A program made the position numbers and the translations under genes. Shown here piece by piece: positions 6,546 to 18,610 of a stretch of DNA of 33,831 bases (the first letter of the stretch is position 1; each line of letters starts with the position of its first letter). The stretch is from a virus. The stretch is from the IMG/VR virus record IMGVR_UViG_3300011114_000574, positions 1 to 33,831 of that record. One strand, given 5' to 3'. A model generated the notes under the pieces. The model did not search any database and was not told where the DNA came from. It saw only the letters and a list, made by a program, of their open reading frames with translations.

Positions 6546-6573
6546 CAAATCTAATTAAATTTTAAATATCAAA
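6546..6573 (-). promoter_or_regulatory. Bacteroidota-type promoter for the late region
   Basis: On the minus strand TAGATTTG (plus 6546-6553) matches TAnnTTTG. A TTTG (plus 6570-6573) lies 16 nt upstream. The element ends four bases before the ATG of the 128-aa gene, implying a leaderless or near-leaderless transcript. It overlaps the end of the VRR-NUC gene. Confidence 0.55.
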
Positions 6574-6924
6574 AATATAATCTGAAACACACTTCATAAA
6601 TTCGTCAAGCGACCGGCAAATGGAGTATTGATAATTCCATCGCTCCACATTCTTTTGAAACTCCTTTTGCTCGGGTGACTGTCTGCCTATTTTCGTTTTT
6701 AACTCAATTAGAAGCCCATGCTTCGATTTATTTGGTCGAAGGATAATTATATCAGCTACTCCTGCTTTCACTCCTTCACGCTTAAATCTGACCGCCTCAC
6801 GAATATTTCTTTGACCTCCGTTTGGAACGGCGAACGCAATGATGTTTGAATGTTGGAATGCCATCCACTTAAAACAAGTAATTTGTAAATGGCTTTCAGA
6901 TTCAATCGGTGCTTTGGATTTCAT
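6562..6924 (-). CDS. VRR-NUC domain nuclease, 120 aa
   Basis: A stand-alone VRR-NUC protein. Visible are the N-terminal helix ESHLQITCFKWMAFQ, then AFAVPNGGQRN, GVKAGVADIIILRP and LLIELKTKIGRQSPEQKEF. These give the PD-(D/E)xK core: the D of GVADI, then E and K of IELK. Phage members of this family are structure-specific nucleases that probably process branched DNA in replication or recombination. The start is the ATG at 6924, 15 nt behind an attC-like hairpin. The first nine codons are duplicated in inverted orientation at 18584. Confidence 0.85.
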   Translation of the reverse strand: MKSKAPIESESHLQITCFKWMAFQHSNIIAFAVPNGGQRNIREAVRFKREGVKAGVADIIILRPNKSKHGLLIELKTKIGRQSPEQKEFQKNVERWNYQYSICRSLDEFMKCVSDYIFDI

Positions 6925-6992
6925 GCTGTGAATTTAATTTATAACATTGGATTAAAAGATATGATTACACTTCGTTAATCTCTGTGTTATGC
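6898..6992 (-). repeat. Inverted repeat R1, 95 bp, pairs with 18516-18610
   Basis: Read on the minus strand, this 95-bp segment matches 18516-18610 on the plus strand with about three differences, all in the hairpin loop and inner arm. It holds attC-like site A and the first nine codons of the VRR-NUC gene. Confidence 0.9.
6939..6992 (-). repeat. attC-like hairpin A, 54 bp
   Basis: On the minus strand the site runs GCATAAC - ACAGA - GATTAA ... TTAATC - CAAT - GTTATAA. The outer ATAAC/GTTAT boxes pair, followed by an unpaired spacer and an inner stem with an extra base on the 3' arm. The stop codon of the 59-aa gene is within the first box (GCATAA). This matches integron attC layout (R'' spacer L'' loop L' spacer R'). 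Confidence 0.7.
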
Positions 6993-7166
6993 GACATTCC
7001 CTTTTTTCTTTTTATCTTTTTTCCCCTCCCCTAAAGAAAATGATTTAATGATTGAAAGAATTTCCGTTTCGCAAAAGTTCTTCCTACTCCTGCCTTGTTC
7101 GGTTGCAATCTTATCAAGCAACTTCACATCCTTGCTGTCCAGATGAATTTCTATTCGTGTTCTCAT
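6987..7166 (-). CDS. Ribbon-helix-helix-like small protein with Lys-rich tail, 59 aa
   Basis: MRTRIEIHLDSKDVKLLDKI looks like the strand and first helix of a ribbon-helix-helix (CopG/Arc) DNA-binding protein. A second helix follows, then a basic tail (GKKDKKKKGNVA). The ATG overlaps the stop of the 71-aa gene. The stop TAA falls inside the first box of hairpin A, as often happens with integron cassette genes. It may regulate its own cassette. A similar gene precedes hairpin G. Confidence 0.7.
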   Translation of the reverse strand: MRTRIEIHLDSKDVKLLDKIATEQGRSRKNFCETEILSIIKSFSLGEGKKDKKKKGNVA

Positions 7167-7378
7167 AGTGAAAGTATTTGAACTGGTATTTCACCGAAGT
7201 CCTTATCAAAGGTCGTGTCAATCGGTTGCCATATCAGTTTATTACTGTATCTCTTTTCAGTGGCATAAGCCATTTGCTTATCACAGGTCGGGCAACAAAT
7301 CAAATCGTTGCTGTGGTTCGGTTCGCCTTTAACTTCAACGATTGAACCTTCGTTACAGACATTGCATTTTAGTTTCAT
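7163..7378 (-). CDS. Zinc-ribbon-like protein, 71 aa
   Basis: MKLKCNVCNEGSIVEV has CxxC at residues 5-8, and ICCPTCDKQMAY has a second CxxC pair near residues 29-32, the spacing of a small zinc ribbon. The C-terminal half (KLIWQPIDTTFDKDFGEIPVQILSL) is not recognised. It lies between two small genes of the same cassette-like unit (7593 to 6987). The function is unknown, possibly nucleic-acid or protein binding. Confidence 0.65.
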   Translation of the reverse strand: MKLKCNVCNEGSIVEVKGEPNHSNDLICCPTCDKQMAYATEKRYSNKLIWQPIDTTFDKDFGEIPVQILSL

Positions 7379-7383
7379 AATGT

Positions 7384-7593
7384 TTAGTTGTTGAATGATA
7401 AATTGGTTGCATCGGTTGTGAACTTTCCATCAGGAAACATCGTGAACCACGATTGTTTTCCGTTACCTGATTGCATTGTGATTAACACTTCATCGTTAAT
7501 CTGTTTAGCCATTTCAAGTGCTTTCTTTTTCACTTGTCGCAGGTCGTAAAATTCATAGACCTTGTAGTTGATTTCAAATGTGTATTGCTTCAT
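7384..7593 (-). CDS. Hypothetical protein, 69 aa, first gene of cassette X
   Basis: The true start is the ATG at 7593 (MKQYTFEINYKVYEFYDL). The open frame upstream is promoter DNA with a TATCTTTG element 20 nt before the ATG. The product has beta strands at both ends around a helix (VKKKALEMAKQIN) and ends FPDGKFTTDATNLSFNN. No motif recognised. It leads a three-gene unit with the zinc-ribbon and ribbon-helix-helix genes, bounded by hairpins B and A. Confidence 0.65.
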   Translation of the reverse strand: MKQYTFEINYKVYEFYDLRQVKKKALEMAKQINDEVLITMQSGNGKQSWFTMFPDGKFTTDATNLSFNN

Positions 7594-7833
7594 CTTTTTA
7601 TTATTTATACGACAAAGATACGATAAAGTTACGACACCACCAAATAAAGTTATTAACAATCGTGCTGTTTTTGAAAATATGTATTTTGGTTTTCAAGTAG
7701 TTGTAAAATATTTTCAGTCGTGTTTTTTCGGTTATCAACAACAAAGAAAAAGAATGATTAAATGATTGCCCACGCACAAAAAAGATAAAAAGAAAAAAGG
7801 GAACGAGCCACCCCGCAAAAGCCCTACGCACTC
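7594..7833. other. Non-coding leader of cassette X
   Basis: Together with hairpin B this makes a gap of about 370 bp without a gene. It holds the promoter at 7613-7644 and AT-rich sequence. It also holds a 16-nt motif (TTTTTTGTGCGTGGGC on the minus strand, plus 7768-7783) that recurs at 17935-17950, just behind hairpin F. I see no convincing gene in it. Confidence 0.55.
7613..7644 (-). promoter_or_regulatory. Bacteroidota-type promoter of cassette X
   Basis: On the minus strand TTTG (plus 7641-7644), 20 nt, then TATCTTTG (plus 7613-7620). Good match to TTTG-N~19-TAnnTTTG. It lies 20 nt before the ATG at 7593. Confidence 0.7.
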
Positions 7834-7964
7834 GCATAACAAGAAGATTAAAAGAAAGCGGGGTGTAGTGGTTTATCATAGTGTAGTGCTGTTAATTGTC
7901 TGCATCGGTAAGTGGAAGTGTGGAGCATTTAATCCCGCCTTCTTTAATCTCCGATGCGTTATAT
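7834..7964 (-). repeat. attC-like hairpin B, 131 bp
   Basis: Minus strand: ATATAAC - GCATCGGA - GATTAAAGAAGGCGGG ... CCCGCTTTCTTTTAATC - TTCTT - GTTATGC. The inner stem is about 16 bp with one extra base on the 3' arm and one mismatch, around a loop of about 70 nt. It starts directly after the TGA of the 116-aa gene. Confidence 0.72.
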
Positions 7965-8023
7965 TCACATTTCTTTTTTTTCATTTCGATTAAAGATAGC
8001 CGAAATTTCATTCTCAATCTGTT
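7944..8023 (-). repeat. Inverted repeat L1, 80 bp, pairs with 17771-17850
   Basis: Read on the minus strand this equals 17771-17850 (plus) with a single difference (GAA versus GCA codon context). It covers the last 18 codons and stop of the 116-aa gene plus the left arm of hairpin B. Confidence 0.92.
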
Positions 8024-8315
8024 CAGTCAGTCCGATTTCAATTAAGTCGGCTGCTGCTGCTGTTAGTTCATAAAATGAAGTTCCCTTTGTTCTTTGAGTA
8101 TCTACTAATCCAAACTCTTTATAGATTTCTTTTGATGGTATTCTATAAGATTTGAACAAACGAATTAGCACTCTTTTAATTCTTAGAGTATCACTATCTC
8201 GTTCTAAACATTTGGCGATTTCAGAACCTAATACTGTCCTTCCTTTTCTTTGAGTGACAAGCATGAGTGCTTCGTAAATGGTCCGCCGGCGGTCGGTGTG
8301 GTTTAGATGGTTCAT
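7965..8315 (-). CDS. Hypothetical protein, 116 aa, last gene of the replication operon
   Basis: A mostly helical, basic protein. DRRRTIYEALMLVTQRKGR and GSEIAKCLERDSDTLRIKRVL could form a winged-helix or HTH-like domain, but the match is weak. It follows the primase-helicase by 24 nt. The C-terminus QIENEISAIFNRNEKKEM is encoded a second time, in inverted orientation, at 17771-17829. Its stop abuts hairpin B. Confidence 0.62.
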   Translation of the reverse strand: MNHLNHTDRRRTIYEALMLVTQRKGRTVLGSEIAKCLERDSDTLRIKRVLIRLFKSYRIPSKEIYKEFGLVDTQRTKGTSFYELTAAAADLIEIGLTEQIENEISAIFNRNEKKEM

Positions 8316-8339
8316 GGTTTATTTGTTTGGTTTACTGCT

Positions 8340-10088
8340 TTAAAAAGGTACTGGTTCTTCATTCATTCTTTTCCACTCATTCCAAAATCTGTATGGCAAT
8401 AAGAAATCTTTTCCTTGCTCTGAATACCTGCCTGTAAAAAAATCATAGTTGAATCGTACCGTTCCACATTCACCAACAAACTTCCACCGTACTTTCTGAA
8501 TATGAACATCTACTGAGTTATCTTTATTCCGATAAACGATTATTCCGTTATCAGCTTTGTTGTACCAATGTGCGCTCCCTGATATTGAATAAAGATTTGG
8601 TATTTCATAAGCCCCTGTTTCATTATCCTTTTTTAATTTGGTTGGATGTGCAACAAGAAACAAATGGATGCCATATGTTTTTATAATGGTAGTGAATTTT
8701 GCAAGTGATTCATTGATGTACTGAGTTTCATTTTGACCATTAGGAACTAAATGTTCGACACAATTCCAAGGGTCAACTATTGCGCCGTTCACTCCATACT
8801 TTTTAACACATTCTTTAATCGTGTCGCATATTCCGGTAACGCTTGTATCTGCTTCTGAAAACTTAAAGAAGTAAAAATGTTCCTTCACAAATTCGTAAGC
8901 AATCTCAACATCAACCGGTGCCATTTTAAAATTAGGTATTTCAGAATCAAAAGACTGCCCGATAAACATTGATGAAATCATTGAAAACATTTCTTCTTCA
9001 GGCATATTTTCAGGAGCAAACACTACCCACTTCCATCCGTATCTTGCTGAAAGCAAAATCATAAGCCACAATGTGAAGTTTGATTTGCCATGTGAAGGAA
9101 TCCCTGATACTACTGTAAAGTCCCCTTGACGAAAAGAAAGTAAGCGGTCAAAGTCTCCGAGCTTTACCTGATTCGGTTTCTCCCTTCCATTTTTATAAAG
9201 GTTGAAAATCTTTTCTTTGAAACCGTCAACCGTCCATATTCCTTTTATCGGTACTGGTTGTGCTGACTTAATACAATCAATTAATTTTCCTGTGCCATTC
9301 TTTTCTAAAAATTCATTTGCATCCTTACACTCTCCGAAGGTTACGATGTAACAACGGTCTGCTCCTAACCGCCTGATTAATTCGTTCTGTAAAAATATTC
9401 CTGCTTCATCGTTATCAGTTGCGATGTATATTTTCTCCATCGCCTCAAACAACTCCCAATTGTTATCAAGGTAGGTTAGTTGTGCTGAGTTTGATTTACT
9501 TGCTCCATTCGGCACGCTGATGGCTGAATAGTACCCTTCCTGATAAAAGGTCATGCAATCTATTTCTCCTTCACAAATCAAACATTCTGACTTTGCTTTT
9601 ATTGAATCCAAGTTATAGAAAATCAATTCGGCATCCTTCACTAAGCGGAATGATTTTTTTGCATCTCGGTATTTAATGTTAACCAGTGCGCCGTCACGAT
9701 AATAGTTAAAGTTGATTGTTTTTCGTTTACCTGCTTCAATAGTTTTATTCTGAAAACTTCCTTCCGGCATCCACTCCTCGCTTTCTGTAATTTTAAAATA
9801 TTGAAGGGTGCTTTCTTTTATCCCTCTTTTTTCAAACCAAGAAATAGTTTCTTTTGATAACGATGTGAGGTTACACATCGGCATCACATACTCTTTTTTC
9901 TCAGCAATGTTTAATGTTCCTTTGAATCCGCAGTTGTGACAAAACCATGTGCGTGTATCAATGTTCACCGATAAACAAGTATCTGATTTATGCTTACGCT
10001 CTTCGCTGCATTTCGGACACTTTGTTTTCAGTTGCCCTGATGTTTTAGACTTTAAGTCTATTCCTGTTTGCTCCCAAGTTATTTTCAT
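8340..10088 (-). CDS. DNA primase-helicase (T7 gp4/Twinkle type), 582 aa
   Basis: An N-terminal zinc ribbon (C24, C27, C50, C53) is followed by a TOPRIM primase core with LICEGEIDCMTF near residue 170 and IYIATDNDEAG near 225. A DnaB-family helicase domain follows with Walker A SGIPSHGKSNF near 335 and IVDPWN as Walker B near 440. Later come FLVAHPTKL and SGSAHWYNKADNGIIVYR, typical of helicase motifs H3-H4. It unwinds the fork and makes primers. The start overlaps the stop of the DUF1376-like gene. The size suits a full-length bifunctional enzyme. Confidence 0.93.
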   Translation of the reverse strand: MKITWEQTGIDLKSKTSGQLKTKCPKCSEERKHKSDTCLSVNIDTRTWFCHNCGFKGTLNIAEKKEYVMPMCNLTSLSKETISWFEKRGIKESTLQYFKITESEEWMPEGSFQNKTIEAGKRKTINFNYYRDGALVNIKYRDAKKSFRLVKDAELIFYNLDSIKAKSECLICEGEIDCMTFYQEGYYSAISVPNGASKSNSAQLTYLDNNWELFEAMEKIYIATDNDEAGIFLQNELIRRLGADRCYIVTFGECKDANEFLEKNGTGKLIDCIKSAQPVPIKGIWTVDGFKEKIFNLYKNGREKPNQVKLGDFDRLLSFRQGDFTVVSGIPSHGKSNFTLWLMILLSARYGWKWVVFAPENMPEEEMFSMISSMFIGQSFDSEIPNFKMAPVDVEIAYEFVKEHFYFFKFSEADTSVTGICDTIKECVKKYGVNGAIVDPWNCVEHLVPNGQNETQYINESLAKFTTIIKTYGIHLFLVAHPTKLKKDNETGAYEIPNLYSISGSAHWYNKADNGIIVYRNKDNSVDVHIQKVRWKFVGECGTVRFNYDFFTGRYSEQGKDFLLPYRFWNEWKRMNEEPVPF

Positions 10089-10735
10089 CTTTTGATTGGA
10101 TCGAATTGAGGTTGCGAATTAATAATTTTTTTCTGATTTTTATTTTTAATACAGGTTTTCAGCCAACCTATTAACGACTTTCTGAATTTATGTTGTGTTG
10201 TAAATTTCCAATCATCCCTATTGCATTTTACAAGATGGCTTTTAATCCATTCAGCATCGGGGGACTCTGAAAGTTCATTGTGTGCCATTTCTGAAAATTT
10301 AAAATCCCTTTCTAATAATATATCATTAGTCCATAATTCATTTTTATCTTCATCTTTATCTTCATCTTCAGGTCGTATAAGAATCGTATTAGAATCGTTA
10401 TACGATGGTAATACGATTGTATTTTTTTCTATCCCTTTTCTTTTATTCCATGTTTCTTTTGCCGCTTCAGAAATATTAGTTGATTTTTTTTGCCTTGAAA
10501 TCATTTCTTCTGACAGGCGAACATTATAAAATCCATGCTCAGTTTCAATAAATTTTGAGCGCAGCATTTTATCATCACCGACTAAATTTTCAAAAGAGTT
10601 TTTTTCAATAAAACCTCCATGCTGATGTTGTGAACAAAGTAGGCGAATATATTTTCCTGCCTGTTCGTTTGAAAAAAACATGGTACCAGTCAACCAATCA
10701 CCGGGATAAAATAAGAAAGCAGGATCTTTAGCCAT
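10085..10735 (-). CDS. DUF1376/YdaU-like replication protein, 216 aa
   Basis: The opening MAKDPAFLFYPGDWLTGTMF and SNEQAGKYIRLLC are typical of the DUF1376 family found in phage replication modules. A Glu/Asp-Lys run near residue 125 (EDEDKDEDK) divides this domain from a C-terminal helical part (WKFTTQHKFRKSLIGWLK) like that of replication initiator or helicase-loader proteins. It overlaps the start of the primase-helicase gene. The likely role is origin recognition or helicase loading. Confidence 0.8.
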   Translation of the reverse strand: MAKDPAFLFYPGDWLTGTMFFSNEQAGKYIRLLCSQHQHGGFIEKNSFENLVGDDKMLRSKFIETEHGFYNVRLSEEMISRQKKSTNISEAAKETWNKRKGIEKNTIVLPSYNDSNTILIRPEDEDKDEDKNELWTNDILLERDFKFSEMAHNELSESPDAEWIKSHLVKCNRDDWKFTTQHKFRKSLIGWLKTCIKNKNQKKIINSQPQFDPIKR

Positions 10736-10841
10736 AATAAAAAGTTCCCCCTAATAAATCCTGTGGAAACATGGCTTCTGACGGCACAATATCACATTCA
10801 GTAATAGAGGGAATTAGGTTAGTAAATCGTTGTGAAAACAT
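10728..10841 (-). CDS. Possible small protein, 37 aa
   Basis: The ATG at 10841 opens 37 codons (MFSQRFTNLIPSITE ... LLGGTFYYG) ending inside the start of the replication gene (8-nt overlap). Overlaps of this kind are the rule in this operon, which supports it, but the peptide is short and has no motif. A weak TATATTTA element (plus 10864-10871) stands upstream. Confidence 0.35.
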   Translation of the reverse strand: MFSQRFTNLIPSITECDIVPSEAMFPQDLLGGTFYYG

Positions 10842-10921
10842 TTGTCAGAATTTTGTTTCGGTGTAAATATAAAATTAAAATCTAATTGTAAAAGGAAAAG
10901 TTTATTAACAGGGTAATGTGA

Positions 10922-11215
10922 TTATGCAACTTTTATTTTAAAATCTTTTCTGCTAATCTCAAAGTAGCTGTTCACCTTGTTAATACTCTGAGTTGTTGCC
11001 CATCCTTTGAATGCCAATGTAATTTCCGAGGCGATTAAGTTTTGTGTTCGTGCTATTCTTATCTTATCGCCTGAAGTTAAATTTTCAATCCATGCTTTTA
11101 AGATGTGAGCAGGAACCGGTATATATTTTTCGTTCTTCCTTTTTCGTGTAGGTTCAATTCCAAACAGTGAACGCTGACCTCCACGGCGGTAACTTCTTTT
11201 TTTATGGTGGCTCAT
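10922..11215 (-). CDS. Basic hypothetical protein, 97 aa
   Basis: Strongly basic N-terminus (MSHHKKRSYRRGGQRSLFG, then TRKRKNEKY), then a helical part (PAHILKAWIENLTSGDKIRI) and the C-terminus EISRKDFKIKVA. Likely binds nucleic acid. The ATG overlaps the stop of the C5 methyltransferase gene. It is followed by 80 non-coding bases, which are AT-rich. Confidence 0.62.
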   Translation of the reverse strand: MSHHKKRSYRRGGQRSLFGIEPTRKRKNEKYIPVPAHILKAWIENLTSGDKIRIARTQNLIASEITLAFKGWATTQSINKVNSYFEISRKDFKIKVA

Positions 11216-12387
11216 TTGTTTAAGTATTTAAAAATGTGTGCAATGACTTCAATCGTCCAACCATTTCCTAACATCTTGTACCTCTGTGAATCGCTGACAT
11301 AGTTAGTGTAATTGTCTTTGACTGTTTGTAACCTCTCACATTCTATTGGTGTTAATCTACGGATTCTTGAAGTATTAATCAATAAATCACTTTTACCTTT
11401 CATTTTTGCAGGACTGATTCCATTTGTATCATAAATTCTATTTTGTTGGTATGGTTGGCATCCATTGCTTTCAGTTGATGGATTTAATTGCATTACTAGG
11501 TTGTCTTTATTTATTGCAGTAGTATTACCTGTATCTAAACAATAAGTTTTCCCATCATTTCTTGATAAATGCCCTGTACCACCTTTCCCTGTTGTTGAAC
11601 TTCTTGACATTGTATTATGGACTATTAAATCATCTACTCCACTACCACCAATTTTTAGACAATTAGATTTTTGATTTTCGTTTGGTACTCTTGGAATAAA
11701 GGGATGATTATTTTTAATTCTATCAAAAATAAATGAATTTTCACTCAAATAATATTTATCATCAACATCACTTTCCAAAACATCTTTTAATAATATTCCC
11801 CGGTCTTTTGGCTGCTTAATAATTGATTGCATATCTCCAAACAATCCGGATGGCTTCATTCCAATATTTGTCCAATAGATACGCTTTCTATTCTGAGCAG
11901 AAACCAATGATGAATTTATATGAATGCCATTTACTCCAATAGCTTTACTCAATATCCGTTCCCATTTATCACCCATCTCCACATTCTCCAACAAAAAGTA
12001 TTTTGGTTTTACCTCATTTAAAATTCTCATGTATTCCCAAAATAAATAAGACTGCCCTTCAAATTAAAATCCTTCTGATTTTAATTTAACATAATGTTCC
12101 AATGTCAAAATTTCCTGCTCATCTTTTGTACTCATTCCTTTTCTTTTACCGGCAAATGAAAATGATTGACAAGGACTGCCACCGATTAATAAATCTATTT
12201 GTGGAAATTCATAACCATCTATATCAACAACACTACCAAGCTGAACAGTATTAGGATAATTTGCCATTGTAACTTTAATCGCATACTTGTCTATCTCTGA
12301 TGCAAAGTATTGATTGACTTCTATTCCTGCTCTTGCAAGAGCTTGTTGTCCGCATGACATCCCATCAAAAAGAGAAAGTACATTCAT
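11212..12387 (-). CDS. DNA cytosine-5 methyltransferase with one in-frame TAA
   Basis: The first part has motif I (VLSLFDGMSCGQQAL), ASEIDKYA (motif II) and GGSPCQSFSFAGKR with the catalytic Cys (motif IV). After codon 107 there is a TAA (12066-12064), then FEGQSYLFWEY and MRILNEVKPKYFLLENVEM (motif VI, ENV), SAQNRKRIYWTN (VIII), RRLTPIECERLQ (IX) and MLGNGWTIEVIAHI (X). Both halves share one frame with no other damage, about 391 residues if the stop is read through. A change of GAA or CAA to TAA would explain it. A restart at ATG 12030 would lose 11 conserved residues. Probable role: protecting phage DNA from host restriction, if active. Confidence 0.88.
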
Positions 12388-12515
12388 CTGTAATTAATAA
12401 ATAGTGAACAATAAAAAGCAGCGGCAACTGCTCCGCACATTACCGCCGTCATCAAAAAAAACACAATAATCATTGTGAACTGAATCTCTTTTAAAATAGT
12501 GATTAGGAGTTTCAT
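12384..12515 (-). CDS. Small single-pass membrane protein, 43 aa
   Basis: The ATG overlaps the TGA of the 94-aa gene, and the TGA overlaps the ATG of the methyltransferase, so it is coupled on both sides. The sequence begins MKLLITILKEIQFT and is followed by a hydrophobic helix (residues about 14-40, with VFFLMTAVMCGAVAAAF). No function recognised. Tight coupling argues that it is a real gene. Confidence 0.6.
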   Translation of the reverse strand: MKLLITILKEIQFTMIIVFFLMTAVMCGAVAAAFYCSLFINYR

Positions 12516-12796
12516 TTCTTTTTATAAACTTTATTCATTCTACCATATCCTCCTGCTCTCTTATCATCCGTCAGCACTAAGTACCCTTCATTCATTATAT
12601 CAGTAATGCTACGCCTTACTGACCACAACGGATACTTATAACCGAATGATTCTAACTTGTTGAACACTTCAAAAGCCGTCAATCCTGATGGGTAGTTTCT
12701 GAAAATGTTTTTAATCATTTCGTCAACTTTCAAATTGTTATCCCAATGGAGTGCTAATTCAGGTTGGGTTAGGTTTGTAGTATTATAATAAGCCAT
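12512..12796 (-). CDS. Winged-helix-like protein, 94 aa
   Basis: The middle (SGLTAFEVFNKLESFGYKYP, then WSVRRSITDIMNEGYLVLT) has the helix-turn-helix and wing pattern of small winged-helix proteins, followed by GGYGRMNKVYKKK. Similar proteins occur in replication regions of Bacteroidota phages. A DNA-binding or regulatory role is inferred. Confidence 0.65.
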   Translation of the reverse strand: MAYYNTTNLTQPELALHWDNNLKVDEMIKNIFRNYPSGLTAFEVFNKLESFGYKYPLWSVRRSITDIMNEGYLVLTDDKRAGGYGRMNKVYKKK

Positions 12797-12824
12797 AATT
12801 AAAGTTGTTTCTAGGTTTTATTAT

Positions 12825-13613
12825 TTAATATTTGTAAGAGGTTTGCAGTCGTTCATTTGTCAGTTGTATTGCTTTTGGGTTAATATCGCATCCTATAAAT
12901 TTTCTGTTCAATTCTTTGCATACTACGGCAGTCGTTCCGCTTCCTAAATAAAAGTCGGCAATCAAATCTCCTGCATTGCTACTTGCAAGTATTAGCCGTT
13001 TCAATAGTTCCTTTGGCTTTTGTGTAGGGTAGCCAGTCAATTCTTTGTTGTCCCTGCTTATGTAGGTTATATCTTCAAACCAATCCTTCGGCAAACTTCC
13101 TGCCTCTAAAGTGTATTGCGTTCTTTTACCATTCTTTAAAACCGTATAATACCCGTATGTATCAATTTCTTTTTTAAACCTCCTATAAGTCAAATCTGAA
13201 ATACTATCTTTTACAATATCAGAGTTAAATGTAAAGTTTTCAGTTTTGGTGTAGTATAAAATTACATCGTGCTTTTTATTCCAACTGCTTTTAGTTTTGC
13301 CTTGCGAATTATACAACCAACTTATTTCATTTCGGTAATTATCGTAGCCGAAAATATCATCCATAATCAAACGCAACCAATGGTTTATTTTCGTGTCCAT
13401 CTGCAGGTAAATACAGCCAGTCGTTTTCAGTAATCGGTGCATCTCTTTTAATCTTGGTATGTAGTGGTTTTCAATTTCACTTCTTATCGGTTTTAAGTCC
13501 TGATACTCTCCAAAGTTTCTGCCAGTTCCGTAAAGTATATCACAGTAAATCATATCAACACTTTCGGCTGTTAGTTCCTGCATCAATTCTAAATTATCTT
13601 TCTCGTAAAGCAT
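12825..13613 (-). CDS. N4/N6 DNA methyltransferase, beta class (type III Mod-like), with altered motif IV, 262 aa
   Basis: The order motif IV, then target domain, then motif I fits beta-class enzymes. Motif IV reads IYCDILYGTGRNF (residues 22-34), where DPPY/F is usual: both prolines are replaced. The C-terminal half has GYPTQKPKELLKRLILASS and DFYLGSGTTAVVCKEL (motif I), then FIGCDINPKAIQLT. With no partner restriction gene this is probably an orphan enzyme for self-protection or anti-restriction. Whether DILY supports catalysis cannot be judged by eye. It is the first gene after hairpin C. Confidence 0.85.
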   Translation of the reverse strand: MLYEKDNLELMQELTAESVDMIYCDILYGTGRNFGEYQDLKPIRSEIENHYIPRLKEMHRLLKTTGCIYLQMDTKINHWLRLIMDDIFGYDNYRNEISWLYNSQGKTKSSWNKKHDVILYYTKTENFTFNSDIVKDSISDLTYRRFKKEIDTYGYYTVLKNGKRTQYTLEAGSLPKDWFEDITYISRDNKELTGYPTQKPKELLKRLILASSNAGDLIADFYLGSGTTAVVCKELNRKFIGCDINPKAIQLTNERLQTSYKY

Positions 13614-13674
13614 TTTAAAAACAAAATTTTAAATTTTAAAATTTCCCCTTCTTTTTTTCTTTTTTAAACCTGAC

Positions 13675-13744
13675 ACATAACAAGGGATTAAAAGAAATTG
13701 GCTGAAAAAAGAAGCCAACTTCTTTAATCCCCGATGCGTTATGC
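13675..13744 (-). repeat. attC-like hairpin C, 70 bp
   Basis: Minus strand: GCATAAC - GCATCGG - GGATTAAAGAAGTTGGCT, short T-rich loop, AGCCAATTTCTTTTAATCC - CTT - GTTATGT. The stem is about 18 bp with one extra base on the 3' arm at the same place as in hairpin B. The stop codon of the 55-aa gene lies in the first box. Confidence 0.75.
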
Positions 13745-13906
13745 GTCACCTTTAAGACGCTCCGAAACATAATCCTTTACCATCTTTTTAATCGGTTCGA
13801 CAAATTCAACACGAACACGAAAAGCAATAGTTTTAGTTTCATATTCTGCTTTTTTACGACCAGAGAAGGGGCGTTTACCCCCTCTCGTTTCTTTCTTTTT
13901 TTTCAT
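13739..13906 (-). CDS. Small basic protein, 55 aa
   Basis: ATG at 13906 overlaps the TAA of the 72-aa gene (TAATG). The N-terminus is basic (MKKKKETRGGKRPFSGRKK), then comes TIAFRVRVEFVEPIKKMVK, which resembles the strand and helix of a ribbon-helix-helix protein, ending SERLKGDA. The TAA lies in the GCATAAC box of hairpin C. A DNA-binding role is probable but not proven. Confidence 0.68.
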   Translation of the reverse strand: MKKKKETRGGKRPFSGRKKAEYETKTIAFRVRVEFVEPIKKMVKDYVSERLKGDA

Positions 13907-14124
13907 TATGCAAGTTTTAACCAGTTGATAAATTCTTGCTCTGTCAAGTTGTTTAAAAATTCTTTCATTGAGTTGTCATTACTTTCTCCTTTTAAAACAC
14001 AAGCTAAATTTACATTGTGTCTAACTCTTACAGGAAGTACTGTTAATCTTCTAAATCCTAAAGAATATTCTGATGGCTGAGCGTTTACTTTAGCTAATGT
14101 ATTTGTGATTGTTGCAGTTGTCAT
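13906..14124 (-). CDS. Hypothetical protein, 72 aa
   Basis: First gene of a two-gene cassette-like unit between hairpins D and C, with its own promoter 41 nt upstream. It begins MTTATITNTLAKVNAQPS, has a basic middle (LTVLPVRVRHNV) and an acidic helical end (FLNNLTEQEFINWLKLA). No cysteine cluster, membrane segment or known motif. Confidence 0.62.
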   Translation of the reverse strand: MTTATITNTLAKVNAQPSEYSLGFRRLTVLPVRVRHNVNLACVLKGESNDNSMKEFLNNLTEQEFINWLKLA

Positions 14125-14164
14125 TTTGTTTATTTTTAAATTTTTATTTGCTTAATTGCTGATA

Positions 14165-14195
14165 CAAATATACAACCCATTTTGATAACTGCAAA
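14165..14195 (-). promoter_or_regulatory. Bacteroidota-type promoter of the 72-aa/55-aa unit
   Basis: Minus strand TTTG (plus 14192-14195), exactly 19 nt, then TATATTTG (plus 14165-14172). This is the best consensus match in this part of the genome. It shows that the gap 14125-14454 is promoter plus hairpin D, not coding. Confidence 0.8.
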
Positions 14196-14274
14196 CTTTT
14201 TTCAAAGTATTTTTCATTTATTTTTAAAATAGTTTCTAACTTACTGATAATCAACACGAAAAAATAAGGCGAAC

Positions 14275-14405
14275 GCATAACAAAGTATTGGCAAAAAAGC
14301 GGTTTTAGTGCTTCGTATGAATATTTGTAGTAGGTTAAACATTGGTTCTTCGTATCAACTTTAGTGGTAAAAGTCCGCTTCTTCGCCAATACTCGACCGT
14401 TATCC
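14275..14405 (-). repeat. attC-like hairpin D, 131 bp
   Basis: Minus strand: GGATAAC - GGTCG - AGTATTGGCGAAGAAGCGG ... CCGCTTTTTTGCCAATACT - TT - GTTATGC. The inner stem is 19 bp with two G-A differences and encloses a loop of about 75 nt that itself has partial symmetry. It follows the adenine methyltransferase gene by about 50 nt. Confidence 0.72.
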
Positions 14406-14454
14406 GCAATTCCTGTTTTTTCTTTTTTGCCCCCGCACATTTTTAATAAACTTT

Positions 14455-15063
14455 TTACTTTGAAAATAAAGAGGTTTGAGCAGTTTCCATAGCAAACCTT
14501 TTCATCATTTCAGAATAATATCCTTTGTCAATTTCGCATCCTACCAAATCAAACTCTGCATAGTGGCAGGCAATCGCAATAGAGCCACTTCCCAAATGAG
14601 TATCCAGTATCTTCATTCCTTTCTCTGCATATTTGTTCAGCACCCAATCATAAAGTTTAATCGGCTTCTGTGTCGGATGTATCTTTCCAAATTCGTTTCT
14701 ACTCAAAAGTTTTTTTATCCTTGTCGGTTTGTTGAATGAAGTCCAAGCAAGTTCCGCATCTGCAAAACTCATTCCTTCACCAATCAGTTTGTCCCATATC
14801 AAAAAACATTTCGTGCTGCCCAAGTGCTGAAGGAAATAATTACCGCCCCAGATGATTTGATTTTTGCTCACTCTTTTCAGTTCTGTAAAGTAATCTTCAT
14901 TCGGTATTGCAGTGTCCCACCCTTTCGTTTCAAATTGCTTAAAATATGTTCCGCTTGTTTCTATTTCAACTCCATAAGGCGGGTCAACAATCGCCAAATC
15001 AAATTGATGTTTAGTGCAAGTTTTCATATACTCCATACAATCTATGTTCAACAATTCTATCAT
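14455..15063 (-). CDS. Adenine-specific DNA methyltransferase, 202 aa
   Basis: The N-terminal LAIVDPPYGVE carries the catalytic DPPY (residues 27-30), followed by IIWGGNYFLQHL, KIHPTQKPIKLYDWVL and MKILDTHLGSGSIAIACH (motif I), then GCEIDKGYYSEM. The motif order is IV before I (beta-class N6-adenine type). At 202 aa it lacks a large target domain, as usual for orphan phage enzymes. It stands alone between hairpins E and D as a single-gene cassette-like unit. It probably shields phage DNA from restriction. Confidence 0.9.
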   Translation of the reverse strand: MIELLNIDCMEYMKTCTKHQFDLAIVDPPYGVEIETSGTYFKQFETKGWDTAIPNEDYFTELKRVSKNQIIWGGNYFLQHLGSTKCFLIWDKLIGEGMSFADAELAWTSFNKPTRIKKLLSRNEFGKIHPTQKPIKLYDWVLNKYAEKGMKILDTHLGSGSIAIACHYAEFDLVGCEIDKGYYSEMMKRFAMETAQTSLFSK

Positions 15064-15142
15064 GAAAGTATTTTCAAAGTAAAAATTTTATTAAAAAAAT
15101 CTCCTCCGCTCTTTAAGAAAAAAATAAATTTCAAAAACAGAC

Positions 15143-15233
15143 GGATAACAAAAGGATTAAATGAAATTGGCATTTTGATTTTCTTATTTTTTATTGGCAA
15201 AAATTTAACTGCATAAACCCTCGTCCGTTATTG
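15143..15233 (-). repeat. Possible attC-like hairpin E, 91 bp (weaker)
   Basis: Minus strand: CAATAAC ... GTTATCC. The outer ATAAC/GTTAT boxes and the position (15 nt behind a gene stop, before the next gene) agree with the other sites. The 3' arm has the usual TTTAATCC, but the inner stem is poor, so the site may be degenerate. Confidence 0.45.
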
Positions 15234-15246
15234 ATATTTTCTGCTT

Positions 15247-15594
15247 TCATTGCAATTTTGATTTGTAGAAATTAATTATCTGCTCCATAAAACTATCATA
15301 GTAGAGCGCAAATGTTTTATAACCTTCCGGTTGCTGTTCCCATCTTCTATAAAGAACCGCCCGTAATCTTTGAGAGTTAGATTTTATTCCGTCCTCCACT
15401 TTTATTTCATCAATCATCTTTTCTTCCTCCTGAGTGAAAGCGTTTAGATTGATTCCCAACACACACTCCTTACCGTTCATTGAACCCAAGTCCATCATTT
15501 GCGAAGGTGAAAGTTCCGGAGTTGAAAATGTGATGCTCCACGATTTATCTACGCGGCTTTTAATGGAGGTTACTTGTGCTGCTATCTGTATCAT
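15247..15594 (-). CDS. Hypothetical protein of the recombination module, 115 aa
   Basis: Begins MIQIAAQVTSIKSRVDKSW and ITFSTPELSPSQMMDLGSM with beta-strand character, then a helical C-terminal half (LRAVLYRRWEQQPEGYKTF). The pattern is like small proteins that accompany phage annealing proteins, but I do not recognise a named family. The start overlaps the stop of the GIY-YIG-like gene. Confidence 0.6.
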   Translation of the reverse strand: MIQIAAQVTSIKSRVDKSWSITFSTPELSPSQMMDLGSMNGKECVLGINLNAFTQEEEKMIDEIKVEDGIKSNSQRLRAVLYRRWEQQPEGYKTFALYYDSFMEQIINFYKSKLQ

Positions 15595-16100
15595 AATGAA
15601 ACTAATTTATCTTTTGAATACCTTAATTTTTCATCTTCATAATATTTATAGTTTTTTATAAAGCCATTATGCTGTAAAACAAAGTTAACATTATCCTCTA
15701 TCCAATCTCCCCCAATACCATAAAACACATTTCTTATCTGAATTATATCTTTAAAATTTAAATTAAACCATTCGCCACCTACTCTTTTTTGATGGAAAAA
15801 TTCATGTAGCACTTGCTCAATTAAAACTGCCGGTTCATCATATCCCAATTCTAATTCAATCGAAATTAATACAGATAAATTACACCCTGACTGACTTCTT
15901 AAGTTTTGGATTCTTGAATAAATATTATCTGTAATTCCTATTTTACATAATTTAGTAACCGGATTTCCAATTAAGTAAACACATAATTTTTCAGGTAGTT
16001 TTCTAATTTCATCAGATATTGGATATTCTACTCTTTCATAATAGTAAGAATTTAAATACTTATGATTTATTGCTTTCTTATTTTTAAAAATAGTTTTCAT
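15591..16100 (-). CDS. GIY-YIG-like protein (T5orf172/MUG113 type), 169 aa
   Basis: CVYLIGNPVTKLCKIGIT, then IYSRIQNLRSQSGCNL and the C-terminal HEFFHQKRVGGEWFNL are the core motifs of the T5orf172/MUG113 group of the GIY-YIG nuclease superfamily: the VYLI...KIGI strand pair, the Arg of the R-x-L helix, and GEWF with the metal-binding Glu. A short basic N-terminus precedes. The likely role is DNA binding or cleavage in recombination or homing. The gene is embedded in the ERF operon with overlaps on both sides, so it does not look like a recent intruder. Confidence 0.8.
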   Translation of the reverse strand: MKTIFKNKKAINHKYLNSYYYERVEYPISDEIRKLPEKLCVYLIGNPVTKLCKIGITDNIYSRIQNLRSQSGCNLSVLISIELELGYDEPAVLIEQVLHEFFHQKRVGGEWFNLNFKDIIQIRNVFYGIGGDWIEDNVNFVLQHNGFIKNYKYYEDEKLRYSKDKLVSL

Positions 16101-16249
16101 ATCTGTTCGTTGGTTATAAAGTCCTTTTCATCTTCTTCCTCTTCGTCTTGAGGTTCGCAATGTTCTTTGCAAGCCGAACATATATCGGTGTCATCATATA
16201 TCCTTGCGCCGCAGCAGGATGAGTAATTGTAGCTTGGATGTATTATCAT
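16097..16249 (-). CDS. Small Cys-rich acidic protein, 50 aa
   Basis: Overlaps its neighbours at both ends with ATGA junctions. The Cys residues (SSCCGARIY, then DICSACKEHC) could form a zinc ribbon, followed by an acidic run (QDEEEEDEKDF). It resembles the 87-aa protein encoded just upstream (SCCHTPYF ... CTTCGNKC), so the two may be related. The function is unknown. Confidence 0.65.
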   Translation of the reverse strand: MIIHPSYNYSSCCGARIYDDTDICSACKEHCEPQDEEEEDEKDFITNEQI

Positions 16250-16509
16250 AATTCTAAATTGTTTTGAAAGGTTAAATCTTCTGAAAGCTCAAAGCGTTCA
16301 TTGCCTTTGAACCTGATTGTTTTCTTTGGCTCAATGTATTCCGGTAGTGGTGCAATCGGCTCCTGAATTGGATCAGCATAATAATCTATTCGCTCGTTTA
16401 CAAGTGCGCCAATATCGTGGGTAAATGGTTCACATTTATTTCCGCAGGTCGTACACACTCCATCGGCGAAGTATGGAGTGTGACAGCATGATGTTAGTTC
16501 GTTTGTCAT
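16246..16509 (-). CDS. Small zinc-ribbon protein, 87 aa
   Basis: The N-terminal TSCCHTPYFADGVCTTCGNKC gives a four-Cys ribbon (residues about 8-26), followed by a Pro/Glu-rich linker and a beta-rich end (KTIRFKGNERFELSEDL). Overlaps the ERF gene stop. Probably an accessory of the recombination module. No named family recognised. Confidence 0.68.
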   Translation of the reverse strand: MTNELTSCCHTPYFADGVCTTCGNKCEPFTHDIGALVNERIDYYADPIQEPIAPLPEYIEPKKTIRFKGNERFELSEDLTFQNNLEL

Positions 16510-17099
16510 TTCTTTATGAAGGTTAAAAGTTCATCCTGATTAATCTTGCTCACGATGTATTTTGATTTGATTTGTTCGAGTGTAACCTTACCGGCTTCTA
16601 AATTAATTTTAGCTTTCTGCCATTTTTCGGTAAGTGTTGTTTTGTCGTTTTCAAATTTATTCAACCATTCTTTTTTTGATTCGGCAACATTTACATTATG
16701 GTTTTCTTTCGGTTGCTGTGTTGCTGCATTTGCATCGTCATCTTCATCAATTGCCAAACCTAATATAGCACCGAGCGCATATCTGCGAGCGTATGTTATT
16801 GCGCTGCCAACCGCTTGCGGGTCGTTTACTTTAGCAACAGGCATTTGATAGGTTGCCTGAATATACTCTCCTGTTTCTGAGTGCATCAATACCGTTGTAA
16901 GTCCTGTTTCATCAGGGAACTGAGTGTAACACAATCCGCTTTCAGCCAACGGCATTGTGATGTGTTCAATGATTGTAGTGAGCGAAGCGTACTTACTTTT
17001 AAAGAACGGATTCACCGAATCCTTCTTTATGCTTCCTACTTTGATTTGAAAGGTTGTTAGTGCCTTTGCAAGATTTGAAATTGAGTCTGATTTTATCAT
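16506..17099 (-). CDS. ERF-family single-strand annealing recombinase, 197 aa
   Basis: LAKALTTFQIKVGSIKKDSVNPFFKSKY, which spans residues 10-37, then SLTTIIEHITMPLAESGLCY, TTVLMHSETGEYI and GSAITYARRYALGAILGLA are the ERF signature blocks. The C-terminus is an acidic linker (DEDDDANAA) and a helical tail. It anneals homologous single strands and could mediate exchange between the repeats described in this genome. It lies near the start of the early operon. Confidence 0.93.
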   Translation of the reverse strand: MIKSDSISNLAKALTTFQIKVGSIKKDSVNPFFKSKYASLTTIIEHITMPLAESGLCYTQFPDETGLTTVLMHSETGEYIQATYQMPVAKVNDPQAVGSAITYARRYALGAILGLAIDEDDDANAATQQPKENHNVNVAESKKEWLNKFENDKTTLTEKWQKAKINLEAGKVTLEQIKSKYIVSKINQDELLTFIKK

Positions 17100-17111
17100 T
17101 TTAGTTTGTTT

Positions 17112-17300
17112 TTATGATTTTAAATAATTATCTCTTAAGGTGTTCATGTCTCTTGTTACCTTCCATAATTGAACACGAATAGAACTGATTAATATTTCTT
17201 TGCGCGATTCATCTTTACAGGTTTCAATCCATTGCAATAACTCTTTAGTGTTTGCATCCACTATTTTGTCCATTTCTATTGAGTGTTGTTCGCTTGTCAT
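17112..17300 (-). CDS. Hypothetical helical protein, 62 aa
   Basis: The start is the ATG at 17300, one base after the stop of the 34-aa gene. An upstream TTG is less likely. It begins MTSEQHSIEMDKIVDANTK and is helical throughout (RKEILISSIRVQLWKVTRDM). No motif recognised. It comes directly before the ERF gene. Confidence 0.58.
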   Translation of the reverse strand: MTSEQHSIEMDKIVDANTKELLQWIETCKDESRKEILISSIRVQLWKVTRDMNTLRDNYLKS

Positions 17301-17301
17301 G

Positions 17302-17406
17302 TTATGAGTTGTTTGCAAGGGTGACGATTATTAAGAAGATAAAGAATAGGATTGTAGAACCGATGGCTACTGCGCATTGTTCTTTTGTTTGTTGTTGGTT
17401 TTTCAT
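17302..17406 (-). CDS. Small membrane protein, 34 aa, first gene of the early operon
   Basis: ATG at 17406, 26 nt downstream of a strong promoter element. A polar start (MKNQQQTKEQCAVAIG) is followed by one hydrophobic helix (STILFFIFLIIVTLA). Very short, but its place between promoter and operon supports it. Confidence 0.5.
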   Translation of the reverse strand: MKNQQQTKEQCAVAIGSTILFFIFLIIVTLANNS

Positions 17407-17431
17407 TGTGTTTTTGTTTAATTGTGTAGTG

Positions 17432-17462
17432 CAAATATAGTTAATAAATTGATAGTTGCAAA
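17432..17462 (-). promoter_or_regulatory. Early promoter, minus strand
   Basis: TTTG (plus 17459-17462), exactly 19 nt, TATATTTG (plus 17432-17439): full match to the Bacteroidota consensus. Likely drives the ERF/replication operon. It shares a 157-bp intergenic region (17407-17563) with a plus-strand promoter. Confidence 0.8.
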
Positions 17463-17519
17463 TATTTGCATAAATTATTTCAGTATATTTTTACACATTA
17501 TTTTGTTTATAACTTGTAT

Positions 17520-17547
17520 TTTGTTTCGCAATTTATTACTACATTTG
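17520..17547 (+). promoter_or_regulatory. Divergent promoter, plus strand
   Basis: TTTG at 17520-17523, 16 nt, then TACATTTG at 17540-17547, 16 nt before the ATG at 17564. It faces away from the early promoter, so the two may share control. Confidence 0.65.
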
Positions 17548-17563
17548 CCGAAAATAAATTCAG

Positions 17564-17755
17564 ATGTCAATAGTAATTATTCAAGTGCCGGAAAAGATTT
17601 TAACCTACTGCAAAACGAAATGTGCGAAGGGTGACAAATCAAATCTTATCAAAATCGGAGTAAGGGGAAATGATGTTTCTCTGTTCTTTAATGCGGGGCA
17701 AGGGCGCAAAGAAATTATTGAAAAGATTCACACATACTTTAAATCTAAACAATGA
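17564..17755 (+). CDS. Hypothetical protein, 63 aa, plus strand
   Basis: MSIVIIQVPEKILTYCKTKC, then NLIKIGVRGNDVSLFFNAGQ and a helical end (KEIIEKIHTYFKSKQ): two strands and a helix. The gene has its own promoter and is the first plus-strand gene next to the divergent early promoter, a place where regulators are common, but I see no HTH. Its TGA overlaps the next ATG. Confidence 0.62.
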   Translation: MSIVIIQVPEKILTYCKTKCAKGDKSNLIKIGVRGNDVSLFFNAGQGRKEIIEKIHTYFKSKQ

Positions 17756-17829
17756 AAACCCTTTTCCTCCAACAGATTGAGAATGAAATTTCGGCTATCT
17801 TTAATCGCAATGAAAAAAAAGAAATGTGA
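17752..17829 (+). CDS. 25-aa ORF carrying the C-terminus of the 116-aa protein
   Basis: The ATG overlaps the TGA of the 63-aa gene. After seven codons (MKTLFLQ) the last 18 codons encode QIENEISAIFNRNEKKEM, identical to the end of the protein encoded at 7965-8315. It arises where inverted repeat L2 begins. It is either a remnant of a truncated gene copy or a short coupled gene. The frame is kept. Confidence 0.45.
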   Translation: MKTLFLQQIENEISAIFNRNEKKEM

Positions 17830-17850
17830 ATATAACGCATCGGAGATTAA
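17771..17850 (+). repeat. Inverted repeat L2, 80 bp, pairs with 7944-8023
   Basis: 79 of 80 bases match the reverse complement of 7944-8023. It ends within the first stem of hairpin F, where the two loci diverge. Confidence 0.92.
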
Positions 17851-17915
17851 CGCTGCCTTGCGAAGCGTTGGCTCTTGTGCGAGGGGCAAGGTTGCGTTTA
17901 ATCTTCCTGTTATGC
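17830..17915 (+). repeat. attC-like hairpin F, 86 bp
   Basis: Plus strand: ATATAAC - GCATCGGA - GATTAACGCTGCCTTGC ... GCAAGGTTGCGTTTAATC - TTCCT - GTTATGC. The first boxes are identical to hairpin B, but the inner stem and loop differ, with the arms changed together so that pairing is kept. One extra base on the 3' arm, as in B and C. It starts directly after a TGA. Confidence 0.75.
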
Positions 17916-18057
17916 TGTCGTTTTTTTTCTTCTTTTTTTTGTGCGTGGGCTGTATTTCTCCCTTTTCAACTAAAAATAATCTCTTTGAATATCAAGCAGT
18001 TATGAACTATTTGAAAAATAAATGCAAAAGTATAGCGTATATCTCAAATACTCGGTG

Positions 18058-18065
18058 TATATTTG
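18058..18065 (+). promoter_or_regulatory. -7 promoter element of cassette Y, near-leaderless
   Basis: TATATTTG ends four bases before the ATG at 18070. No good TTTG lies upstream. An imperfect dyad (GCAAAAGTATAGCG at about 18024-18037 and its partner ending in TTTGC at 18066) overlaps the element and could be an operator. Confidence 0.5.
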
Positions 18066-18069
18066 CTGC

Positions 18070-18279
18070 ATGAAAAAGATACAAGAAATAAAACGGTTAT
18101 TAAAGTTAAGCGAAATAGCTCAATCAAAAGTTCAGTTTAATTGGAACGGAACAAAGGTTACTAATCCAATGCAACAGGCAGCAGCAAACAGATTGTATTC
18201 ACGAGCATATAAAGTATGCGCGGGCGAATATGACATTGCGACACTACATAGAGATGTAATAAAAGAAATGTCAAAATGA
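18070..18279 (+). CDS. Hypothetical protein, 69 aa, cassette Y
   Basis: The start ATG 18070 is preferred over an upstream ATG at 18022 because the promoter element lies between them. Helical and basic: MKKIQEIKRLLKLSEIAQSK, then NPMQQAAANRLYSRAY and ATLHRDVIKEMSK. No known motif. The TGA overlaps the start of the ribbon-helix-helix-like gene. The two form a unit between hairpins F and G. Confidence 0.62.
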   Translation: MKKIQEIKRLLKLSEIAQSKVQFNWNGTKVTNPMQQAAANRLYSRAYKVCAGEYDIATLHRDVIKEMSK

Positions 18280-18521
18280 AAACACTGCTGGAAATAATTG
18301 ATACAACTAACGAACTAAATATTTTGAACATGGACAGAAAACCGAAGAACATTCATCTGACTGATGGAGCAATAAAATTTCTTTCAATCAAAGCTATTGA
18401 AAATGGCACGAACTTTAAGAATTATGTTGAAGGGTTATTAGAAGCGATGTCGCAAACCCAATCGCTGCCTAAAGCAGCGAACAGAGGGGAGAAAAAAAAG
18501 AAGAAAAAAAATGCGGCATAA
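18276..18521 (+). CDS. Ribbon-helix-helix-like protein with Lys-rich tail, 81 aa, cassette Y
   Basis: The part MDRKPKNIHLTDGAIKFLSI and KNYVEGLLEAM fits a ribbon-helix-helix DNA-binding domain (strand KNIHLT, helix, helix). A basic tail follows (GEKKKKKKNAA). As with the 59-aa protein of cassette X, the stop TAA lies in the GCATAAC box of the following hairpin (G). The parallel layout suggests a related cassette with a different sequence. Confidence 0.7.
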   Translation: MKTLLEIIDTTNELNILNMDRKPKNIHLTDGAIKFLSIKAIENGTNFKNYVEGLLEAMSQTQSLPKAANRGEKKKKKKNAA

Positions 18522-18569
18522 CACAGAGATTAACGAAGTGTATTCATTTCGTTTAATCCAATGTTATAA
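18516..18569 (+). repeat. attC-like hairpin G, 54 bp
   Basis: Plus strand: GCATAAC - ACAGA - GATTAACGAA, loop, TTCGTTTAATC - CAAT - GTTATAA. Inner stem of 10 bp with one extra base on the 3' arm. Inverted near-copy of hairpin A with three loop and arm differences. Confidence 0.72.
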
Positions 18570-18610
18570 ATTAAATTCACAGCATGAAATCCAAAGCACC
18601 GATTGAATCT
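18516..18610 (+). repeat. Inverted repeat R2, 95 bp, pairs with 6898-6992
   Basis: Contains hairpin G and the first nine codons of a VRR-NUC copy. It matches the reverse complement of 6898-6992 with about three differences. Confidence 0.9.

Follow-up and report, generated by a model that had tools for sequence, protein, structure and literature searches.

The question raised by this locus is whether a phage genome that lacks an integrase can carry integron gene cassettes and, if so, how such cassettes would be gained. We analyzed the IMG/VR virus record IMGVR_UViG_3300011114_000574 over its full length of 33,831 nucleotides (hereafter the window), a 33.8-kb phage genome with nearly every gene on the minus strand, in which a first-pass annotation had reported seven hairpins resembling the attC sites of integrons. 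A 127-nt perfect direct terminal repeat (1-127 = 33705-33831) indicates that the record is a complete phage genome, either circular or terminally redundant. The nearest matches of its primase-helicase among annotated phages are those of Tenacibaculum and Flavobacterium phages (34-37% identity), and its host is therefore likely to belong to Bacteroidota. It is likely that the window holds integron-type gene cassettes of a Bacteroidota phage, in the form of a CALIN (attC cluster lacking integron-integrase).

Seven attC-like hairpins without an integrase

All seven hairpins carry the ATAAC...GTTAT boxes at the places first reported. They are listed below, with scores in bits under a covariance model or a loop-blind profile, both built from host attC sites and described in the next section.

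6939-6992, + strand: attC b, preceding the VRR-NUC gene and receiving cassette A; predicted G|TT cut at 6986/6987
7834-7964, + strand: attC a of cassette A; profile 25.1 on the + strand
13675-13744, + strand: attC with the best match to the host model; covariance model 30.8, E 1.9e-5; profile 39.1
14275-14405, + strand: attC-like hairpin with boxes and a 9-bp stem, no clear extrahelical base
15143-15233, + strand: attC-like site with a weak inner stem; profile 10.2 on + versus 1.6 on -
17830-17915, - strand: attC a' of cassette B; profile 22.3 on the - strand
18516-18569, - strand: attC b', a copy of attC b; profile 13.4 on - versus 0.1 on +

A strict scan of the window, requiring a box pair together with six or more perfect pairs in the inner stem, recovered six of these hairpins and no other site, the one missed being 15143, whose boxes are present. 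By chance, the same scan yielded 0.135 sites per window on average and never more than 2 (200 Markov-shuffled windows). The seven hairpins are thus confirmed as real, far beyond chance expectation. Six of them have GATTAA at the start of the inner stem, and the inner stem of 14275 deviates (AGTATTGGC). The single extra base assigned earlier to the 3' arm holds for the gene strand, except at 14275; this is the arm opposite to that of canonical cassettes. In addition, stop codons lie within the first box in all three reported cases (6987, 13739, and 18519). The absence of an integrase also holds, as no match to the tyrosine recombinase family PF00589 was found across the whole phage. Rfam likewise gave no match.

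Comparison with attC sites of Bacteroidota integrons

Among 395 sampled Bacteroidota genomes, 105 contain an integron integrase that exceeds the cut-off of TIGR02249. Fifty host attC sites were taken from arrays beside such integrases by structure alone, using our own structural scan rather than IntegronFinder. Common to these sites are R boxes, a spacer of 2-3 nt, an L box whose 5' arm bears extrahelical bases, and a second spacer, 6 nt long, ahead of GTTA. A covariance model was built from 39 of these 50 sites; it penalises loops, and its E-values are rough. Its best match in the window is 13675-13744; across 230 kb of phage DNA from elsewhere, the highest score, 18.8 bits, was that of KR136259 30005-30059 in Polaribacter phage P12002L. 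With the second model, a profile blind to loop length, the top sites of the window were 13675, 7834, 17830, and 18516 (39, 25, 22, and 15 bits, respectively). For 40 shuffled strands, the best score averaged 10.1 with a maximum of 21.5, and 18516 is therefore not significant by itself. The attC architecture, comprising R''/R' and L''/L' pairs, asymmetric spacers, and an extrahelical base, is present at the same four sites and weak at 14275, 15143, and 6939. The proposed resemblance to integron attC sites is thus borne out by models derived from host sites for part of the set, with three of the seven sites remaining weak.

Cassette units and pairing in the circle

A cassette would run from an R' cut (G|TTAT) through one or more genes and its own attC to the next R' cut. 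In a true cassette, the TTRRRY start and the R'' box at the end once formed a single R''/R' pair in the circular form. Only four of the units between hairpins fit this arrangement, and for these the proposed cassette layout is upheld; it fails for 7959-13677, which is the phage replication core. The four units are as follows, with box-pairing runs and folds (kcal/mol) given for the circle versus the array.

6987-7958, + strand (attC orientation): cassette A, with a ribbon-helix-helix (RHH) gene at 6987-7166, open reading frames (ORFs) at 7163-7378 and 7384-7659 (all on -), and attC a; box run 9 versus 5; fold -43.4 versus -24.5
13739-14399, + strand: cassette with an RHH-like ORF at 13739-13906 and an ORF at 13906-14124 (both on -); box run 9 versus 5
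14400-15227, + strand: single-gene cassette with an N6/N4 DNA methyltransferase (PF01555) at 14455-15063 (on -) and the attC at 15143-15233; box run 8 versus 5; fold -32.8 versus -16.6
17836-18521, - strand: cassette B, with an ORF at 18022-18279 and an RHH-like ORF at 18276-18521 (both on +) and attC a' at 17830-17915; box run 7 versus 5; fold -53.3 versus -28.3

Besides these four, two cassettes in phage sequence G001 and one each in G002 and G406 were included, giving eight phage cassettes. The pairing run outward from the box averaged 8.25 bp with the partner from the same cassette versus 5.0 bp across the array hairpin, and none of 20,000 permutations reached the observed total (p < 1/20,000). 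The same signature was found in 29 host cassettes (7.8 in the circle versus 5.3 in the array). We regard this circle signature as the strongest sign that these units have been exchanged through integron-type recombination. Such recombination at G|TT would join cassettes to a resident attC of the phage or free them as circles. Since no tyrosine recombinase is encoded by the phage, the integron integrase (IntI) of the host is the most likely enzyme and would mobilise and exchange the cassettes.

As for the small genes, the product of 6987-7166 is a small CopG-type RHH protein according to Pfam, whose stop codon lies in the R box. The products of 13739-13906 and 18276-18521 are also small and are RHH-like by eye only, with no family match. 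Each of the three genes with its stop codon in an R box overlaps or abuts another small ORF, which is reminiscent of toxin-antitoxin cassettes.

Cassette-specific inverted repeats and a circle-only stem

Inverted repeats specific to the individual cassette were found near both ends of seven of the eight phage cassettes. The eight come from three phages, two of which were found via their attC subtype. Those in the window are listed here.

6997-7022, + strand: left inverted repeat of cassette A, a 26/26 inverted match to 7778-7803
7778-7803, - strand: right inverted repeat of cassette A, pairing with 6997-7022
14440-14468, + strand: left inverted repeat of the methyltransferase cassette, a 28/29 inverted match to 15069-15097
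15069-15097, - strand: right inverted repeat of the methyltransferase cassette, pairing with 14440-14468
17921-17940 and 18492-18511: inverted repeat pair of cassette B

An inverted repeat was also sought in cassette 13739-14399, and none was found there. Comparable repeats occur in none of the 29 host cassettes, and none above the level of shuffled sequences were found around the attC sites of P12002L, L008, L034, L146, L147, L170, and L221. When every cassette start was scored against every cassette end, pairs from the same cassette (the diagonal of the matrix) had a mean of 21.3 and all other pairs (off-diagonal) a mean of 11.2 (permutation p 5e-5). The between-cassette scores equal the background, and no terminal repeat is shared. 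Aside from the duplication between loci A and B described below, nearly all inverted repeats in the window are those of the cassettes.

In the circular arrangement, the two repeats flank the attC and extend its outer stem, while in the array this long stem is divided between neighbours. For the eight phage cassettes, folding of the bottom-strand DNA (attC plus flanks) changed from about -26 kcal/mol in the array to about -43 kcal/mol in the circle, and for the seven repeat-bearing cassettes from about -25 to -44 kcal/mol; the corresponding host means are -27 in arrays and -31 in circles. When the starts of other cassettes were swapped in, the fold fell short of that of the cassette's own circle in seven of the eight cases. 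A mechanism may be proposed in which the two repeats of a circularised cassette would meet on either side of its attC and lengthen the outer stem by ~20-30 bp, and in which insertion would split the extended stem between neighbours. A circle would then fold and insert easily, and an inserted cassette would fold and leave less easily. We infer from this that a stem present only in the circle, by favouring folding, would favour insertion of free circles over excision; the present-day activity of the sites is likewise inferred.

One insertion site with two occupants

Two loci of the window share their flanks and differ in what lies between them. In the direction of the genes, locus A runs from the end of gene A (7965-8315) through hairpin a, the cargo, and hairpin b to the start of the VRR-NUC gene (6562-6924). 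In locus B (17771-18610), which is inverted, the gene A end, hairpin b, and the VRR-NUC start recur as copies in this order, with another hairpin and other cargo between the gene A end and hairpin b.

17771-17835, + strand: copy of the 3' end of gene A, one flank of the same insertion site as that of cassette A
18570-18610, + strand: copy of the VRR-NUC leader and gene start, the other flank of this site

Here, 7944-8023 matches 17771-17850 inverted (98.75% over 80 nt), and 18484-18610, which includes the hairpin b copy at 18516-18569, matches 6898-7028 inverted at 91%. In this single natural comparison (6898-8023 with 17771-18610), different cassettes meet the shared flanks at the predicted G|TT cut. 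Divergence starts at the R' cuts, save for a purine tract and ~15 nt that belong to the attC consensus. The two loci have hairpin b in common but not hairpin a, and this independently supports both the orientation of the attC sites and the way in which they were allocated to the cassettes.

No near-identical phage was found in GenBank. A close relative, L001, whose primase is up to 96% identical in protein sequence, lacks locus B. It also lacks the anti-restriction block at 12.8-16.1 kb, which contains three attC sites and two methyltransferases. At the edge of this missing block lies a T5orf172/MUG113 nuclease of the GIY-YIG type (15591-16100). Elsewhere in the window, a C5 DNA methyltransferase of the Dcm family (11212-12387) is broken into two ORFs, 12064-12387 and 11212-12030, covering profile positions 1-89 and 95-328, respectively.

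Gene direction relative to attC

To orient the sites, the profile was run in both directions; with the locus of each site left out, all 50 host sites were oriented correctly. In the window, 7834 (24.1 on + versus 16.1 on -), 13675, and 15143 lie on the plus strand, 14275 weakly so (8.3 on + and 7.4 on -), and 17830 and 18516 on the minus strand, each being opposite to its flanking genes. Site 6939 scored 10.3 on the minus strand versus 5.7, which we judged to be a miscall, and its orientation was assigned from its better preserved copy, 18516. All cassettes of the window are thus antiparallel, that is, their genes run opposite to the attC. The reading as integron gene cassettes proposed in the first-pass annotation is partly supported, by the attC models, the pairing in the circle, the two-state site, and the block missing from L001, but with respect to attC the direction of the genes is the reverse of the canonical one. 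In the main array, the antiparallel genes follow the phage's direction of transcription. This layout places the bottom strand on the coding strand, and its correspondence to the lagging-strand template depends on the direction of replication.

The antiparallel layout was also observed in the other viral contigs P12002L, G001, L008, L034, L146, L147, L170, and L221/L222; this tally covers orientable sites only and is partly non-independent, and some ORF calls near L008 and L034 are mixed. No convincing attC was obtained with the Bacteroidota profile in phage TJE1 or in the initial 50 kb of phage H101.

Related sites in other phages and known systems

Phage-borne attC clusters without an integrase have already been published (Qi et al. 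2023, PMC9892861), including a cluster with methyltransferase cassettes from a phage of Bacteroidota. In that work, five of six phage attC sites recombined, and P12002L_attC2 was active with IntI1 on attI1 (PMC9892861). We identified KR136259 30005-30059 as P12002L_attC2 by its position between two methyltransferase genes. The P12002L CALIN resembles the present one in having an integrase-less attC cluster, DNA methyltransferase cargo, and a Bacteroidota host, and the site 30005-30059 shares the attC architecture and is antiparallel to both flanking genes. Unlike the window, it has no cassette-specific inverted repeats around it. Divergent attC directions in P12002L are mentioned by Qi et al., who make no mention of a consistent antiparallel layout, circle-only stems, or a two-state site (PMC9892861). 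The present system is therefore a variant of an already known kind, for which published phage CALINs provide experimental support (PMC9892861). A search of the open-licence literature found no report of the antiparallel layout, of cassette-specific inverted repeats, or of two cassettes at one phage site, which is weak evidence of novelty.

Chromosomal integrons of Bacteroidota (G273, G293, G261, G072, and others) have the same R boxes, spacers of 2-3 and 6 nt, extrahelical bases, and circle box signature. They differ in having mostly GCGTTT- or GCGCAT-type L boxes, a linked integrase, parallel genes (39:2), and no extended outer stem in 29 cassettes. Class 1 cassettes (attC of the aadA1/aadA7 type) likewise use a single-stranded hairpin site with the order R''-L''-L'-R', in which the extrahelical bases of the top strand are located on its 5' arm (PMC8946536), but have parallel genes, a linked integrase, and attI.

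Scans of collections of viruses and genomes for the structural pattern yielded mostly chance palindromes, with attC-like sites only in G001/G002, G406, L008, L010, and a few others. Among 80 relatives of phage methyltransferases, one flanking attC-like site was found (L170). In G002, a 280-aa tyrosine recombinase (G002:47298-48140, equal to L033:7298-8140) lies beside further cassettes and scores 173 bits with NF040815 and 146 bits with TIGR02249, both under the cut-off; it may serve that phage as its lysogeny integrase, or the array may be its substrate. In L030 (91-860), an attC-like site was recognised by eye, whose arms ATAACAAGGCACTTAATGCA and TGCATAAGTGCCTGATACGTTAG are ~750 nt apart and enclose a gene together with inverted repeats of the gene. 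Moreover, the motif GTGCTTCGTA, followed roughly by AACTTT, recurs, within hairpin loops and at cassette ends, in two phages that are otherwise unrelated (14275-14405 in the window; cassette ends of L030 and L033).

Weighing the explanations

Several observations weigh against an integron-type cassette cluster. Only 13675 is significant with the loop-penalising covariance model, and 14275 and 6939 score low in the attC models. A search for the same hairpins in Bacteroidota integrons yielded no convincing GATTAAA-subtype attC array in the 395 genomes; matches to the GATTAAA pattern are isolated, in 23 of the 395, at about the background level. Host integrons have 39 parallel and 2 reversed cassettes, so that 39 of 41 are unlike those of the phage. 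In addition, locus B holds truncated pieces of both flanking genes, which indicates that the locus arrived other than by cassette insertion; its source was probably a relative, from which it was copied by other means.

Some of these points would fit relic cassettes, i.e. a piece of a host integron that was captured long ago and whose sites are now immobile. There is no enzyme in the phage, sites 14275, 15143, and 6939 are degenerate, and a matching host array was not found in the genomes sampled. Such a history nevertheless appears unlikely, given that the extended pairing within cassettes has been kept, that one genome has two occupants of a single site, and that the same attC subtype occurs in unrelated phages with other cargo.

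Still less probable are terminal-inverted-repeat modules, MITE-like or phage-specific, which would start at GTTAT, be moved by a non-integron enzyme such as an Xer-like one, and resemble attC by convergence. The cassette-specific repeats (7 of 8 units, p 5e-5, none in 29 host cassettes) and the Xer/IntI-like recombinase adjoining the array in G002 would suit such modules. However, the repeats differ in every unit, so that no enzyme site beyond the R box is common to all; moreover, the spacer lengths, extrahelical base, and box agree with host attC sites, host cassettes have an equal circle signature, and the phage of the window has no recombinase. Finally, ordinary intergenic terminators or mRNA-processing hairpins can be set aside as very improbable: the hairpins do lie between co-oriented genes, directly 3' of stop codons, and form stable RNA folds on the gene strand, but no terminator call coincides with any of the seven, no T run follows any stem, and conserved boxes, asymmetric spacers, and intra-cassette pairing serve no role in termination.

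Implications for phage gene acquisition

A further proposal, which we put forward tentatively, is that these units form a phage-adapted cassette class, with a reversed gene and a circle-only stem, that would allow one-way capture of anti-restriction and regulatory genes via host integrases. Folding of attC from double-stranded DNA is governed by the length of the terminal structure and by supercoiling, and placement of the bottom strand on the lagging-strand template leads to more recombination (PMC8946536). Since folding and strand position relative to replication control attC recombination (PMC8946536), a known mechanism is touched by both the antiparallel genes and the circle-only stem, which represent testable departures from textbook cassettes. 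The integron-type cassettes described here would tie integrons to phage gene acquisition in Bacteroidota through sequence evidence of exchange, beyond the prediction of sites. If the insertion bias is true, it would account for the acquisition and retention of anti-restriction genes by integrase-less phages.

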